Positions 1,554-9,765 of a stretch of DNA of 9,765 nucleotides are shown piece by piece. How positions within the stretch are numbered: position 1 is the first letter of the stretch; the number at the start of each line of letters is the position of its first letter. The notes under the pieces are model-generated. The model ran no database searches. It was not told the origin of the DNA and saw nothing but the letters and a program-made list of their open reading frames with translations. The position numbers were made by a program, and so were the translations under genes. Where the stretch lies: assembly GCA_014730235.1 (NCBI GenBank), contig WJIO01000285.1, forward strand, positions 1 through 9,765. The letters run 5' to 3'. This DNA is from Candidatus Poribacteria bacterium (GTDB lineage Bacteria > Poribacteria > DTPJ01 > WJIO01).

Positions 1554-1586
1554 ATAGACACGGATAAATTATTCACCCGTGTCTAT
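1554..1586 (-). terminator. Hairpin between DUF4384 and FG-GAP genes, possible terminator
   Basis: A perfect 10-base stem (ATAGACACGG at 1554-1563, complement at 1577-1586) encloses a 13-base loop. On the minus strand the stem is followed by CTTTATCT, which is only weakly U-rich. The hairpin begins about 45 bases after the stop of the 793-residue lipoprotein gene. It could end or attenuate the sigma operon, or protect the 3' end of the mRNA; the poor U-tract makes full termination doubtful. Confidence 0.45.
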
Positions 1587-1631: not shown

Positions 1632-4013
1632 TTATTGAATTAATTCATCATCCCTGGGTTTGGAGGTAAACAAACACCAGCTATGGGCAAATTTTAAGCT
1701 GATTGGTCTTAAGCCGATGGATTTAGGCATTAACTTTAACTCCTCTGTAAGGCCTTTTGTCGTTACCCCTGATATGTTTATATTCAATTTGTCAAAAAAA
1801 TTGCGAATTAAATCTTCCTGCTCATGATCACTAAATAAACGCTCTACAGCAAAAGCATAAACCCTGTCCATACCAAGGGGTGGTTCAATGAAAAACTCAA
1901 AATCATGACCAGAGTTTTCATCGGGTATGATGTATGTCCTGCCGCCTTTTACCAGGTTACTACTGTGATATATGTTGGGAAAAATCCGGGCAACGTGTCC
2001 TTCTGAATTGATATTGCATAATATAAGGTAGCAATCCCTGTTAGCCCTGAAAAAAATCTTTATTTCTTCACCTTCATAGTAAACATATTTATCTGTCCAT
2101 ACCTCTACTTCCAGGTCGCCGGTATTAAGGTTTGGTATGTAGTTTATTAAATCAGTCAGACTTTCAGAATCCTGTTTTACCTTTAAATCCCAGTTCCGGT
2201 AAAATTTCGTGGTGTCATACTCAAGCCATGAATTTTCTATATCAAATACAAATTCTGGTATGGCTTCAAGTCTGTCTGCATGATTCTTATCTGACCATAT
2301 AATACTTGAATTACCGCCAGTATCGGTATGATTGTATTTCCTGCTTATCTCCAAACCATTATTATCGTAAAATATGTAGATTATTTTTTCATTTTTCAGA
2401 TTTTTACCATTTGTTGAATGTAATTGAAGGCCGAAATCCTGAGCGTTTTTATGTTTAGGTTTTATCTGTATATTCTCCATAGCTTCCCGGAAATTCGCTT
2501 CCAGATCAGCTTTAAGACTCATACTAAAACCATCAGCCTCTATTTGGCTTATCTTCTCGGCACATGACAGGCAGTAATCAATACATGCTGAAATATCATC
2601 CTCCATAAAAGCAGATTCCGCCAGAATAAATTGATCCAGAACTTCTGCTATATTCTGCATACGTTTCTTTAATATATAAGCCAGATACAGATTATCATAT
2701 TTTTTATATTCTACTCCATACAATTCTCTTTTGCTTTCAATATTTGTATAACTCTCATATTTCGATTCAACGTCCTCCCTTGTTGCTTTGATTTTACTAC
2801 TTGATTTATATTCTATCCTGGTTTTTGTATATCTGGATAATCGGCTTAAAGCCTCGTTTTCAGTATTACCGATTCCATAAAAATATTCCCCATAATCCCC
2901 TTCCTTTTGTTCCTGAACCCACCATTTCCAGCCATTAAGGGTTTGGTGGTATGTATCCCCTGATGGCTTGTCAGGGTTTTGGGATTGGGGTTTATTTGTC
3001 TTTGATCCCTGAATTAATACATCCAGGTTATTCATTATAACCCTGTTAATATCATCTTCAATCTGCTGTTTGTTGGTTTCTTTCATCACCTCGACAGCGG
3101 CGTTGATAAAATCCCTGGCTGTCCAGGCCCGATCAATAACGGCCCTGGAATAGGCTGTTTTTGTGTCTTTTGAGAAATATCTCTCCACTATTCTTGAACC
3201 TTCTAGCTCCACATCTGAAAATGATTCCACGATCCTGTCGTAGAAATCCCTTACTGATTCTTCATCGCCAAAGCTGCTCTTGTGGCTGTTTATCCACTGA
3301 CTGATGTCATTTATCACGCTGGTTCGCACCTGTCGGGCTAAAGCTGATCTGGCTACTAAATCCGCTTCGGACATGGCCAGGAACAGCTTGTCGGACATGT
3401 TCTTTTTGTTCATCTTGCCGGAAACAGAAGCATATCCAGTGGCCTCAATGGGATTTTCTCCTGTTGAATTTATAATTGACTTTATGGTGGAATCAAGAAC
3501 GATCTGATCTATCAATGAAGTTTTTTCTCCCAAAGCCTTCTTTGCTTTTAGCGATGCATCCTTTAAAACATTATCCCGATTAACCCGGGCCAGGGCATAT
3601 GTCAAACCGGTTTGGGGATCAATATAGTGGTCTACAATGGCTACCTCTTCCATTGTTTCCTCTGAATAAACCTTCCTTACAGCGTCAAAAACAACTGTAA
3701 ATTCAGTTTCATCAAGACTTCTGTTTGCGGAGACTGCTGTTCTTATGGAACTCATAACCGTAGAAGCCATTATAGAAGCCATCTCCCCCAGGGCCATCTC
3801 TTCAGCCATCTGCATGGATACTTCAGGAAGCGGCATTTCCATAGAATAACCGACAGCTTCAATAACATCATCCTTGTAATCAAGTCTGGTAACCCACGAA
3901 GGTTTTTCGCCGGGTATATATTCAACAACGCCGACCCGGTTTTGAACACCCGCTGCACAGCCAAGAAACGAAATTAAAAGAAGAACAATTATTAGCATGT
4001 AAAGAACTTTCAA
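1632..4013 (-). CDS. Lipoprotein with three LPP20-like segments and DUF4384
   Basis: A 793-residue envelope lipoprotein. The N-terminus (LKVLYMLIIVLLLISFLGC) is a lipoprotein signal with Cys19. Three segments share the LPP20 pattern: a G-Y/I-G opening, a helix with many Ala and Met, then a strand ending in a phrase such as YALARVNRD. They span roughly residues 50-147, 190-300 and 375-450. The third is shorter and is preceded by a polar linker (335-355). Residues 450-525 look helical. The DUF4384 domain lies at about 635-725: VWTDKYVYYEGEEIKIFFRA, then CYLILCN, then RIFPN, then the PPLGMDRVYAFAVE ending. DUF4384 occurs in secreted or periplasmic proteins; its biochemical role is not settled. 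LPP20 proteins include outer-membrane FlgP of Vibrio. The start is TTG at 4013, chosen because AAAGGGGA sits 7 bases upstream and supplies Lys2 for the signal peptide; an ATG at 3998 would leave no positive charge. It lies 24 bases after the FlgO-like gene. Confidence 0.88.
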   Translation of the reverse strand: MKVLYMLIIVLLLISFLGCAAGVQNRVGVVEYIPGEKPSWVTRLDYKDDVIEAVGYSMEMPLPEVSMQMAEEMALGEMASIMASTVMSSIRTAVSANRSLDETEFTVVFDAVRKVYSEETMEEVAIVDHYIDPQTGLTYALARVNRDNVLKDASLKAKKALGEKTSLIDQIVLDSTIKSIINSTGENPIEATGYASVSGKMNKKNMSDKLFLAMSEADLVARSALARQVRTSVINDISQWINSHKSSFGDEESVRDFYDRIVESFSDVELEGSRIVERYFSKDTKTAYSRAVIDRAWTARDFINAAVEVMKETNKQQIEDDINRVIMNNLDVLIQGSKTNKPQSQNPDKPSGDTYHQTLNGWKWWVQEQKEGDYGEYFYGIGNTENEALSRLSRYTKTRIEYKSSSKIKATREDVESKYESYTNIESKRELYGVEYKKYDNLYLAYILKKRMQNIAEVLDQFILAESAFMEDDISACIDYCLSCAEKISQIEADGFSMSLKADLEANFREAMENIQIKPKHKNAQDFGLQLHSTNGKNLKNEKIIYIFYDNNGLEISRKYNHTDTGGNSSIIWSDKNHADRLEAIPEFVFDIENSWLEYDTTKFYRNWDLKVKQDSESLTDLINYIPNLNTGDLEVEVWTDKYVYYEGEEIKIFFRANRDCYLILCNINSEGHVARIFPNIYHSSNLVKGGRTYIIPDENSGHDFEFFIEPPLGMDRVYAFAVERLFSDHEQEDLIRNFFDKLNINISGVTTKGLTEELKLMPKSIGLRPISLKFAHSWCLFTSKPRDDELIQ

Positions 4014-4019
4014 TCAAAA

Positions 4020-4027
4020 TCCCCTTT
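4020..4027 (-). promoter_or_regulatory. Ribosome binding site deciding a TTG start
   Basis: AAAGGGGA on the minus strand lies 7 bases before TTG (4013-4011) and about 22 bases before the first ATG (3998). The spacing favours the TTG codon as the start of the DUF4384 lipoprotein. Confidence 0.6.
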
Positions 4028-4037
4028 CTGAATATGC

Positions 4038-5171
4038 CTACTTAAAACTTACAGAGTATCTCGATGCTTCTTTAATACGTTGAAAATATATCTTCCAATC
4101 CTGCTTGTCCTCTTTTCTTAACTGCATGTAAAAGGAAAGCAGGGGGAGTTTTTGTATTGTACCATCGGCCAGGGTTATATCGGCAAAGAATTTTACACTG
4201 CAAGAGACCACGTTGCGGGAGTTTCGTTTTATATCATATACTTCAGGGTTGCTGAAATCAAAATTTGTAACTCTATATCTATCAAAAAACTCCACCATTA
4301 CTAATTCCAGAGAGTTTCTGTTCAAGACATTTGTAAGTTGTATCCTGGAATTCTGGCTCAGGGTTAAAGTAACTGCGCTGGCATTATCGTCATAAAATGA
4401 CATAACTTTGTTTACATCGCCTGTTTTCCATGCTTCAGTAAATTCTTTTACAAACTTTCTGACTGAATGTTGTATATCTCCGTCGGTTGATATTTCAAAT
4501 TCTATCATCTTAGCCATACTACTCTGGCTTATATTCATTGATATATCCGGCACATTTGGCAAATCCTGTATGGACTTGGGCACAGCCTGAACCGCTACAG
4601 GGGTATGATCCATATAAAGCTGGTTATCTTTCATTCTGAGAACCGTAAAGGCTGTCAGGGCTTGTTTATCCTTTAAGGTTATTTGTCCAAGGATAAGCAT
4701 ATCCACTTCACTTAGTATTTCCCCTAAACAATATCTAAGCTTTGAATCTTTACTGTATTCTGTGGATATTTCTGAAATATTCAGCTTTGATGCCGTTCCT
4801 AAACCCGATTTATCCAGAGCTTTAATCAATACATCCAGATCAACTATATCCAGCTTACCAACCGGTGCCAATCCTGCGGCTAATTTTAAGTATATGGCGT
4901 CCCGAAGCAAAAGGCTAAGCTGACTTTCGTAAAACTTCTGTTGTGGCAAAGTTCTGGTTACTATAGGCCCCATCAAAACCCTTGGGACATAAAATGGATC
5001 GCCCTGTTCGCTGGCCAGGACATTTACTTTTTTTGATATTTCCATCATAGATTGGCTGATCCAGTTTTCAATCATGGTTTCGGTTTCACCAGCTTTAACA
5101 TTGGAAAAAAGTCCAGAAACCAATCCCACTATAACCATCAATACACATAATACCGATTTTTGGAATTTCAT
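4038..5171 (-). CDS. Secreted FlgO/CsgG-like protein with NTF2-like C-terminal domain
   Basis: A 377-residue exported protein. Residues 1-27 are a Sec signal peptide (K2, K5, hydrophobic core, VKA cleavage site) with no lipobox. Residues about 60-190 resemble the FlgO/CsgG nucleotide-free alpha-beta fold: PVGKLDIVD, a helix, then CLGEILSEVDMLILGQITL, where an 'LGE...aDyli.G.i' pattern is typical, followed by a strand naming a parameter (LRMKDNQLYMDH). Residues about 235-370 fit an NTF2/SnoaL-like domain: KEFTEAWKTGDVNKVMSFYDD, then alternating strands ending in DWKIYFQRIKE. NTF2-like domains often bind small ligands or act as interaction modules; no catalytic set is evident. A ribosome site (GAGGTG, 5180-5185) overlaps the anti-sigma stop codon, so translation is probably coupled. 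FlgO and FlgP (LPP20) are partners at the Vibrio outer membrane, and here a FlgO-like gene precedes an LPP20-like one. No flagellar gene is present, so I do not assign a flagellar role. Confidence 0.75.
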   Translation of the reverse strand: MKFQKSVLCVLMVIVGLVSGLFSNVKAGETETMIENWISQSMMEISKKVNVLASEQGDPFYVPRVLMGPIVTRTLPQQKFYESQLSLLLRDAIYLKLAAGLAPVGKLDIVDLDVLIKALDKSGLGTASKLNISEISTEYSKDSKLRYCLGEILSEVDMLILGQITLKDKQALTAFTVLRMKDNQLYMDHTPVAVQAVPKSIQDLPNVPDISMNISQSSMAKMIEFEISTDGDIQHSVRKFVKEFTEAWKTGDVNKVMSFYDDNASAVTLTLSQNSRIQLTNVLNRNSLELVMVEFFDRYRVTNFDFSNPEVYDIKRNSRNVVSCSVKFFADITLADGTIQKLPLLSFYMQLRKEDKQDWKIYFQRIKEASRYSVSFK

Positions 5172-5183
5172 TTTTATTTCACC

Positions 5184-5675
5184 TCATTCTGATTCAAAGT
5201 GTATCTTGTAGCTATTAGACAGACCCTTATTTACCTTATCAAATGATAGCAGAGATTCTTCTATATCCCTCATGGAAAGATCAAGATCAGCGAAGCTGGA
5301 TATTTCATCTATTCCATTACTCTGATTATTTCCAGGGACAAAATAAATGCCAAGACTTATCACCAGGGCCACAGCCACCACCGTTACAGGTATTAAAAGA
5401 CGCATATTCATAAATTTGAATGATTCAAATATTTCCCTTAATTTATCAATTACGCTGGATGATTCCTTTATTGATTCTATGTCTCTAATCCTTTGCATAA
5501 CTGGGGATACGAAATCCGGCACTTCCTCACTCTTTGCCTTCTGGATATTTTCATATACCTTTCGACAATTTTGGCACTGGTTCAGATGTTCCCTGAAATT
5601 TTCGTCCAGAATCAATTCTCCATCTTCATTTACTATCAAACCATCCAGAATTATATTACAATCCTTACCGGTCAT
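5184..5675 (-). CDS. Zinc-binding anti-sigma factor, single-pass membrane protein
   Basis: A 163-residue anti-sigma factor that would hold the adjacent ECF sigma factor at the inner membrane. The N-terminal domain has the ZAS zinc-binding pattern: Cys6, His30, Cys34 and Cys37 (HLNQCQNC), with 24 residues between Cys6 and His30, as in the family. A helical stretch follows to about residue 88. One membrane segment lies near 92-112 (LLIPVTVVAVALVISLGIYF), and a short external tail of about 50 acidic and polar residues ends the protein. That tail is small for a sensor, so signal input may come through a partner, perhaps one of the exported proteins encoded just downstream. The start is ATG at 5675, one base after the sigma stop codon, with AGGGGGTGA 8 bases upstream. 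A longer GTG start at 5684 would have no ribosome site and would lie inside it. Expression is probably coupled to the sigma gene. Confidence 0.88.
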   Translation of the reverse strand: MTGKDCNIILDGLIVNEDGELILDENFREHLNQCQNCRKVYENIQKAKSEEVPDFVSPVMQRIRDIESIKESSSVIDKLREIFESFKFMNMRLLIPVTVVAVALVISLGIYFVPGNNQSNGIDEISSFADLDLSMRDIEESLLSFDKVNKGLSNSYKIHFESE

Positions 5676-5676
5676 A

Positions 5677-6240
5677 CTATTCACCCCCTATCTCGCTGTT
5701 TTTAAATAATTTCTTCAGGAGTTTTTCGCCGCGTTTTTTCCGTTTGCTGACCCATGGTTGACCGAAATTTAGAATTTCGGATATTTCGTCCACACCTTTA
5801 CCCTCCAGATAATACATCCTTATAACCAAAGCTTCTTTTTTGGGAAGCTTATCAATCATATTTTCGACTATTTCCTGCATTTCTGTTTCATCTATGGGAT
5901 TGGAATTGTCTGCTATTTTAAGTTTCTCTGTAAGTTCCAGAATAATGGGAAACTTACCATGTGATCTATGTAAATCCATAGACGTATTATAAGCAATTGT
6001 TTTTAAATAGGGCCAGAAGTTTTCAGGCTGCCTTGGTTCTTTTCTGTCACGCATTGCAGCATAGACCTTTATCAAAGCTTCCTGACAGCAGTCCTCGGCA
6101 TCCTGCAGGTTTGAAACCCAACCTCTGACCAGGTAATGCAAATTCCTTTGATATTTTTTAAATAGCATATCAAAGGCCTCGGTATTACCTTGCCAAACCC
6201 GCATCACCAACTCAGCATCATTATGAATATTTGCGTCCAT
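5677..6240 (-). CDS. ECF-type RNA polymerase sigma factor
   Basis: A 187-residue sigma-70-family factor of the extracytoplasmic function group, with only regions 2 and 4. Region 2 spans about residues 8-93: EAFDMLFKKY, then the core-binding DAEDCCQEALIKVYAAM, then the -10 recognition part FWPYLKTIAYNTSMDLHRS. A linker follows (95-122). Region 4 spans about 123-178: IDKLPKKEALVIRMYYLEGK, then the helix-turn-helix VDEISEILNFGQPWVSKRKK. Length and layout are ordinary for the family. The ATG at 6240 has a GGGGGAGG ribosome site 10 bases upstream (6251-6258). It heads an apparent operon with its anti-sigma factor one base downstream, then two exported proteins and perhaps a third. Such pairs usually respond to an envelope signal and autoregulate. 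A sigma-family promoter is guessed upstream at 6295-6322. The recognition helix has an unusual Gln-Pro-Trp, so promoter choice cannot be read off known groups. Confidence 0.95.
   Translation of the reverse strand: MDANIHNDAELVMRVWQGNTEAFDMLFKKYQRNLHYLVRGWVSNLQDAEDCCQEALIKVYAAMRDRKEPRQPENFWPYLKTIAYNTSMDLHRSHGKFPIILELTEKLKIADNSNPIDETEMQEIVENMIDKLPKKEALVIRMYYLEGKGVDEISEILNFGQPWVSKRKKRGEKLLKKLFKNSEIGGE
5681..5689 (-). promoter_or_regulatory. Ribosome binding site of the anti-sigma gene, inside sigma codons
   Basis: AGGGGGTGA on the minus strand lies within the last codons of the sigma gene, with 8 bases between its G-run and the ATG at 5675. It argues for the ATG over the in-frame GTG that overlaps the site itself. 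Confidence 0.65.
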
Positions 6241-6322: not shown

Positions 6323-6361
6323 AAAAAATAAAGGCTGATCCTCCTGAATGAGAAATCAGCC
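6321..6361 (-). terminator. Rho-independent terminator of the SGNH hydrolase gene
   Basis: A 7-base stem GGCTGAT (6361-6355 with 6339-6333 on the minus strand) is extended inward by a CTC/GAG helix (6341-6343 with 6350-6352) around a 6-base loop. It is followed by TTTATTTTTT at 6332-6323. It starts 29 bases after the hydrolase stop codon and separates that gene from the sigma operon, which reads in the same direction. Confidence 0.85.
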
Positions 6362-7161: not shown

Positions 7162-7230
7162 AATTTTGTAATTTACCATCATTATAAAGGTATATTATAA
7201 AGATATTTTCTAAACACATTTTTCATTTTT

Positions 7231-7351
7231 GGTTCTTCCGGGTTCAGTGTGGTAATAATTTGAAAATTTTCTCAGCTTGTCATTCCTGCGAAAGCAGGAA
7301 TGACAGCATGAAGAAGTCTCTTATCTTTACCACACTGAACCCGGAAGAACC
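7231..7351. mobile_element. MITE-like element, copy 1 (ISL3-like ends)
   Basis: A 121-base element with perfect 25-base terminal inverted repeats (7231-7255 and 7327-7351, starting GGTTCTTCCGGGTTC). TCATTTTT occurs immediately outside both ends (7223-7230 and 7352-7359), which is an 8-base target duplication. The centre holds the 28-base palindrome with a GAAA loop (7278-7305). It has no coding capacity, so it would need a transposase supplied from elsewhere. By recall, ISL3-family insertion sequences have ends beginning GGCTCTTC and make 8-base AT-rich duplications, which both fit. No parent transposase is in the window. Confidence 0.82.
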
Positions 7352-7432
7352 TCATTTTTTAACGATTACTATAAATAACATAAATGAATCTCCAAGTCAA
7401 GAAAAACTGTTTGGGACAGGTTGAATCAGTAC

Positions 7433-7644
7433 CCAAGCATAAAATTTATGTCTGTGAAAACTTTGGCTCTTCCGGTTTGAGTATGGTAATAATTTGAAAA
7501 TTTTCTCAGCTTGTCATTCCTGCTTTCGCAGGAATGACAGTATAAAGAAGTCTCTTATCTTTACCACACTGAACCCGGAAGAACCAAACTTTATTTGTTA
7601 CTCCGTTCTTCGCAATAACACTGGGATATAAAATTTATGCTTGG
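7433..7644. repeat. Inverted-repeat pair enclosing the second 121-base element
   Basis: CCAAGCATAAAATTTAT (7433-7449) pairs with 7628-7644 at 16 of 17 positions. Removing the 121-base element and one flanking repeat leaves arms about 50 bases apart. The arms are AT-rich, so part of the match could be chance. Confidence 0.4.
7465..7585. mobile_element. MITE-like element, copy 2 (ISL3-like ends)
   Basis: A second 121-base copy in the same orientation as copy 1, identical at 111 of 121 positions by direct comparison. Its right terminal repeat is identical to that of copy 1, while the left one (GGCTCTTCCGGTTTGAG...) differs at 4 of 25 positions. AAACTTT lies immediately outside both ends (7458-7464 and 7586-7592), a 7-base duplication that would be 8 if one A of the left AAAA run was lost from the right copy. 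The central palindrome is at 7512-7539 and has a TTTC loop, the reverse complement of the GAAA in copy 1. It has no coding capacity. Confidence 0.82.
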
Positions 7645-9216: not shown

Positions 9217-9765
9217 TTAATTTAATCTATATACAATAAACCCATTATTCTGGTACATTATGGGAAAATTAAGCTTTTGTGATTTTCGCGTTACGGCAAT
9301 AGAAGCACCGTATTTCTCTTTTAATTCTTTAAATTTCTCTTCGTCAAATGAATCATAACCTTTAAGTTCCTGCATCCTGGCCCACCATTTTTTAGCATAT
9401 TTTTCCGAAAACACACAAGGTGCGCCGTCTTTCCAGTCGCCCACGATAGCACGCTGGGAATGGATACGAAATCCTCCAGTATTTCTTACTACCAGATGAA
9501 GCGCATCAACAGGCGTGTTTTCTTTACACCACCTCTGCACGTCAACCCAATCACTGTATGGCAATTTACCCGGTAGATTCACGATTTGTGTAATCTGATT
9601 TTTTATAATAGTTTGTTTTAAGGTGCTGAATCTGGGAACAACCAGCGCAAGGATAGTTGTGGCTATTATACCACTCATGGCTGCTTTCTTTAGTAACCCC
9701 CATTTCCTCCAGTTAGCAATAAAATATAAGACTAAAATAAAGGCAGTAACTATAATTATTATACG
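9217..9765 (-). CDS. Polytopic membrane protein, C-terminal part, DUF6798-like domain
   Basis: The frame is open from the right edge to a TAA at 9217, giving 182 residues of a longer protein whose N-terminus is outside the window. An internal ATG at 9678 has no ribosome site and lies inside a membrane segment, so it is not the start. Counting from the edge, one membrane segment occupies about residues 2-17, a positively charged loop (NWRKWGLLKK) follows, then a second membrane segment at about 28-45. The remaining 135 residues are soluble and should be outside the cytoplasm: WVDVQRWCKENTPVDALHLV, then TGGFRIHSQRAIVGDWKDG, then KKWWARM, ending in IMYQNNGFIVYRLN. The W..W...nTP.dA and gFr..s.R....wKd pattern matches, by recall, the C-terminal domain of DUF6798 membrane proteins, which resemble GT-C glycosyltransferases. 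Its function is unknown. It converges with the regulator gene, 95 bases apart. Confidence 0.72.
   Translation of the reverse strand, partial: RIIIIVTAFILVLYFIANWRKWGLLKKAAMSGIIATTILALVVPRFSTLKQTIIKNQITQIVNLPGKLPYSDWVDVQRWCKENTPVDALHLVVRNTGGFRIHSQRAIVGDWKDGAPCVFSEKYAKKWWARMQELKGYDSFDEEKFKELKEKYGASIAVTRKSQKLNFPIMYQNNGFIVYRLN

Follow-up and report, generated by a model that had tools for sequence, protein, structure and literature searches.

A probable four-gene ECF sigma factor operon with an LPP20-type DUF4384 lipoprotein: a possible new layout for an extracytoplasmic signalling domain

The window analysed here (the whole stretch of DNA, 9,765 bp) is an entire contig of a 5.5 Mb genome assembled in 451 contigs. 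Its minus strand carries five genes in succession, the first encoding an ECF sigma factor, as found in the ORF list and by domain searches. On the simplest reading of the sequence, the first four of these genes constitute an ECF operon (6240-1632) flanked by terminator-like hairpins, in which a sigma/anti-sigma pair is followed by an exported protein and by a lipoprotein that combines LPP20-type domains with DUF4384. Comparison with other genomes suggests a broader proposal, which we offer tentatively and rate somewhat below an even chance: DUF4384 may serve ECF signalling in several phyla as a modular domain outside the cytoplasm, either fused to the anti-sigma factor or to a kinase encoded beside sigma, or carried by a separate exported protein of the operon. 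The present locus would then represent a new layout, made of an LPP20-repeat lipoprotein and an orphan NTF2-like partner.

Gene order and limits of the transcription unit

The genes of the proposed operon are tightly spaced (Table 1). The sigma stop codon TAG (5679-5677) is separated by one base from the anti-sigma ATG at 5675, the anti-sigma gene lies 12 bp (5172-5183) from the gene of the exported 377-aa protein, and the latter lies 24 bp (4014-4037) from the gene of the DUF4384 lipoprotein. Of the two bounding hairpins, the one at 1586-1554 has a z of -4.85, with equal stability reached in 0/200 shuffles, and the one at 6361-6333 folds at -15.1 kcal/mol (z -2.65). The first-pass annotation had described five successive minus-strand genes and a sigma/anti-sigma pair heading an operon with exported proteins. 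The former are seen in the gene calls, including the one-base gap within the pair, and the latter agrees with the short same-direction gaps and the hairpins on both sides.

Table 1. Features on the minus strand of the window
Feature	Position	Strand	Basis or remarks
ECF sigma factor, 187 aa, regions 2 and 4	5677..6240	-	TIGR02937, Sigma70_r2, Sigma70_r4_2
ZAS-type anti-sigma factor, 163 aa	5184..5675	-	motif, hydropathy, position one base after sigma
Exported protein, 377 aa, with signal peptide, orphan N-terminal domain and weakly NTF2-like C-terminal domain	4038..5171	-	
Lipoprotein, 793 aa, two to three LPP20-type domains and one DUF4384	1632..4013	-	domain searches
FG-GAP beta-propeller lipoprotein, incomplete at contig end	3..1505	-	FG-GAP_3 1.2e-26
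Hairpin, 15 bp, short T-rich tail, terminator- or attenuator-like	1554..1586	-	3' of DUF4384 gene, before FG-GAP gene
Terminator-like hairpin, then TTTATTTTTT (T-rich tail)	6333..6361	-	between upstream GDSL gene and sigma gene

The same annotation had placed the FG-GAP gene, as a third exported gene, behind a hairpin. The hairpin itself is there, but its strength, together with a promoter-like site that also precedes the gene, makes membership in the operon doubtful. The FG-GAP gene probably has its own transcript, or is attenuated, because terminator-like hairpins bound the four-gene unit. The promoter-like site, TTGACT-17-TAAAAT at 1628-1600, stands shortly before the hairpin at 1586-1554. 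It is a mere hint, since such sites are no more frequent on the contig than in shuffled sequence.

The sigma factor has only regions 2 and 4, the architecture of ECF sigma factors, which measure about 190 aa. It scored 87.4 bits against TIGR02937 (cut-off 42.9), 46.1 bits against Sigma70_r2 and 32.2 bits against Sigma70_r4_2, the last two also exceeding their cut-offs, and no relative above 37 percent identity was among the matches listed. Its neighbour carries the motif Cx23Hx3Cx2C (Cys6, His30, Cys34, Cys37) and, by hydropathy, a single TM-like segment from residue 93 and an outer tail of 43 aa. These are the traits of a ZAS protein (Hx3Cx2C with an upstream Cys or His, one TM helix, a gene adjoining that of the sigma factor), and they bear out the earlier designation as a ZAS anti-sigma factor with a short external tail; the match to Pfam zf-HC2 stays below the cut-off (12.7 bits, cut-off 22.2). 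A search of 84 related genomes returned weak matches to the anti-sigma factor, and no clear ortholog.

Two further elements were seen on the contig. At 9217-9765 the minus strand encodes a membrane protein that has a DUF6798 domain and runs off the contig. Two copies of a palindromic, MITE- or REP-like repeat about 128 bp long stand at 7225-7352 and 7462-7585; genome-wide the repeat has at least 40 scored places, an initial look having given 913 candidates.

The exported products and the FlgO question

The gene at 5171-4038 had been labelled FlgO-like, and together with the LPP20 lipoprotein it had been likened to the Vibrio FlgO/FlgP pair. The two loci share an LPP20-type lipoprotein and an exported partner, but here there is no detectable FlgO and no nearby flagellar gene. 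The FlgO identity was rejected: there is no PF17680 match, a FlgO search across the whole genome did not return the gene, the FlgO/CsgG profile gave 0.6 bits, a score reached by 129/1000 shuffles, and hhalign to FlgO gave a probability of 0.14 on a scale of 100. The FlgO/FlgP analogy is unsupported since it depends on this identity. A flagellar-motor outer-membrane pair under ECF control is accordingly a reading to which we give hardly any credence. In its favour are the LPP20-type domains of the lipoprotein and the presence of FliG elsewhere in the genome, on another contig (G000:C101:19986-20306), so that the genome probably encodes a flagellar motor and the organism could well have flagella. 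Against this reading stand the undetected FlgO and the contig itself, where the gene list and domain search found no flagellar gene, as the first-pass annotation had remarked.

What the 377-aa protein does contain is a C-terminal part of 150 residues with weak NTF2-like matches (best 20.7 bits against a Pfam cut-off of 23.6), a trait that the earlier annotation had not reported. Its N-terminal 196 aa have no Pfam match, and a single-sequence AlphaFold model (pLDDT 35) was too poor to judge the fold. No ortholog was found in the named-genome contig scan or in viral contigs, and 145 related genomes yielded just one weak partial match, in a 1040-aa frame.

The 793-aa lipoprotein carries DUF4384 at about residues 630-735 (PF14326, 77.9 bits, cut-off 27, 6.4e-22). 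Against LPP20 (PF02169) it scores 24.2 bits, slightly under the cut-off of 25.9. With a local LPP20 profile, built from the LPP20 regions of DUF4384 proteins from five genomes, segments 1, 2 and, weakly, 3 beat all 500 shuffles each. The description as an LPP20 lipoprotein carrying DUF4384 is supported, the LPP20 part being probable. The gain of DUF4384 by an LPP20 protein, as the earlier annotation put it, is not special to this locus. The same genome encodes a single-chain LPP20-FlgO-DUF4384 protein (L057:7015-8640, equivalent to G000:C169:43014-44639), with single-chain relatives at L056, L066, L152 and L154. LPP20 and DUF4384 are regular partners, because single chains with both occur in this genome and in several relatives. 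As in our lipoprotein, LPP20 and DUF4384 share one exported chain there, but that chain includes a FlgO domain and no ECF pair was seen alongside.

A model of the DUF4384 domain, computed from a 49-sequence alignment, is Ig-like (pLDDT 86). Its best VIA-align match, with a Z of 7.5, is to complement C4b (Ig/macroglobulin-like sandwich), a likeness that is within the range of common arrangements and may reflect just that. A Foldseek search with the model gave no match at E <= 0.001, and the sequence matched PDB entries, mainly antibody chains, at chance level. The predicted fold is a generic one, in which no known ligand site could be recognised.

DUF4384 beside ECF sigma factors in other genomes

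To our knowledge, DUF4384 is a common domain without an assigned function. A survey was made by scanning DUF4384 gene neighbourhoods from many families with sigma and DUF4384 profiles. About nine in ten of the surveyed regions have no ECF sigma factor, which means that DUF4384 is not an ECF-only domain. Of the regions with a sigma gene within 7 kb, 12 have it upstream in the same direction and 4 have it in another placement, or 10 against 4 after merging kin. This gives p = 3e-4 against one in four (four placements equally likely) and 0.09 against one in two (the chance of co-directional placement). Because of the latter value, the neighbourhood survey alone is only suggestive as evidence for a DUF4384-ECF link.

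Gene-order conservation together with fusion provides stronger evidence. In the phylum of genome G292, a single DUF4384 gene passes the search threshold in 17/20 genomes, and each of the 17 has sigma, anti-sigma, exported protein and DUF4384 protein co-directionally in this order; these genomes represent one family, and hence not 17 independent events. In the class of genome G346, searched with an anti-sigma/DUF4384 fusion, 25 rows corresponded to 23 distinct places, and an ECF sigma gene lies upstream, co-directional and within 1.5 kb in 21 of them, a set that is not a random sample given that the query itself was a fusion. The earlier statement that no named system of such composition was known so far holds for the exact composition, which was unmatched, but the DUF4384/ECF pairing within it recurs elsewhere (17/17 and 21/23).

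The fusions themselves take several forms. At L157/L228 a zinc-finger anti-sigma factor with a C-terminal DUF4384 comes directly after the sigma factor, and L230, L231 and L236 have the same layout; in all of these a zinc-finger motif, a TM segment and DUF4384 could be read directly in one protein. L233 and L234 have a clear TM segment and DUF4384, with a zinc-finger motif that is not clear. The gene after sigma encodes a Ser/Thr kinase-TM-DUF4384 protein at L146 and L147. In the fusions of the G346 class, as in our locus, DUF4384 is outside the membrane and directly tied to the ECF pair, but a single protein there corresponds to a separate lipoprotein here.

Other arrangements occur as well. 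In a Nitrospirae genome (L194), sigma and a zf-HC2 anti-sigma factor are followed by a caspase-DUF4384 protein. In a Nitrospirota genome (L187, on a contig shared with L108), the ECF cluster also has Secretin_N and CsgG-type proteins, a FlgO/CsgG-DUF4384 fusion and a TPR/CHAT-like protein, the last read from the sequence. The operon of the G292 phylum and the L187 cluster, with its extra genes, resemble ours in that sigma, zf-HC2 anti-sigma, exported and DUF4384 genes follow one another in the same order and direction. They differ in the third protein (Secretin_N-type in L187), in the anti-sigma tail and in having no LPP20 domains.

Some neighbourhoods were noted by sequence reading. At L106:9569-9033 and L116:6351-6887, the gene after sigma seems to encode an anti-sigma factor with an outer part similar to a glycogen-binding (AMPK/CBM48-like) domain, and next comes a DUF4384 protein whose repeats are PEGA- and PKD-like. 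At L139, caspase-like, VWA-like and DUF4384 genes form a cluster that includes an ECF sigma factor; except for sigma and DUF4384, the assignments were made by eye.

These comparisons bear on the possibility that our locus is a chance, lineage-specific assembly, in which an ECF pair came to stand before two functionally unlinked and unrelated exported genes. Such an origin would fit the 84 to 145 related genomes without an ortholog of the anti-sigma factor or the exported protein, the 36 sigma-70 region-2 genes of the genome, and the fact that we deal with a single contig of a draft MAG. It is at odds with the very short gaps, the hairpins on both sides and the identical sigma/anti-sigma/exported/DUF4384 order fixed in another phylum, and we consider it improbable.

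Envelope input or sigma target

The reading that we favour, at close to an even chance without quite reaching it, is that the exported products of the four-gene operon act as a sensor or co-inhibitor module. It builds on what is seen directly, namely the order and spacing of the genes, the domains they encode, the hairpins on either side and the recurrence of DUF4384 in ECF operons. The anti-sigma factor would retain sigma at the inner membrane, while the LPP20-DUF4384 lipoprotein and the exported NTF2-like protein would form an envelope-side module. We infer a contact between the DUF4384 protein and the anti-sigma factor, through which the module would report the state of the envelope, as the presumed signal, to the short-tailed anti-sigma factor, as RseB does for RseA. 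Upon stress the anti-sigma factor would be released or cleaved by proteolysis, and the freed sigma would transcribe its own operon (autoregulation) and other targets.

The RpoE-RseA-RseB system of Escherichia coli is an envelope-stress module. Our operon shares with it an ECF sigma factor, a one-TM anti-sigma factor, an exported partner and the order of the genes, but the anti-sigma factor here is ZAS-type with a short tail, and the third and fourth proteins match no RseB/RseC relatives in the searches made. The first-pass annotation had proposed an exported protein as sensor or co-inhibitor, a reasonable idea given that in other genomes DUF4384 is joined to the anti-sigma factor or encoded fourth in an ECF operon that is conserved. 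Counting against our reading, DUF4384 is here on a separate protein and not on the anti-sigma factor, most DUF4384 neighbourhoods have no ECF sigma factor, the exact operon was not found in a second genome, and the Ig-like fold of the domain is generic.

The exported proteins might instead be targets: sigma would be freed by anti-sigma proteolysis on another cue, and the operon would put out envelope-repair or surface proteins. We regard this as quite possible, if on balance doubtful. Targets usually sit downstream of an autoregulated ECF pair, and ECF operons elsewhere pair DUF4384 with a wide variety of partners (OmpA, PEGA/PKD, CHAT, caspase, secretin-like), a repertoire that resembles an output. 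Yet where DUF4384 is fused directly to an anti-sigma factor or to a sigma-adjacent kinase, an input role is suggested for those systems. The fusions thus favour input and the diversity of partners leaves room for output; for this locus the two are close rivals.

ECF sigma/anti-sigma operons with exported partners are an already known kind, and the pairing of DUF4384 with ECF genes recurs in other phyla. The exact four-gene composition has so far been found only here, with no second genome among the related genomes and in the named-genome scan, and it seems unique to date because searches of the phylum, which included one other genome of the same order, gave no ortholog of either the anti-sigma factor or the exported protein. 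Publications that name DUF4384 include two in which it is an accessory domain in caspase relatives from cyanobacteria. No publication tying it to ECF systems was found in a search that did not extend to the 2021 ECF reclassification and its supplements, which may list such context. The fusions and fixed gene orders offer a testable first function for DUF4384, as the outside-facing part of ECF switches. If this were true, many uncultured lineages would use envelope sensors or co-inhibitors of a class that has gone unrecognised.

A separate observation concerns the sigma factors of the phylum relatives. Many sigma-like matches, with several in a genome, fall in long open frames of 700 to 1100 aa (for example G047:C1, G017:C10 and G034:C2), and look as if ECF sigma domains were joined to large proteins.
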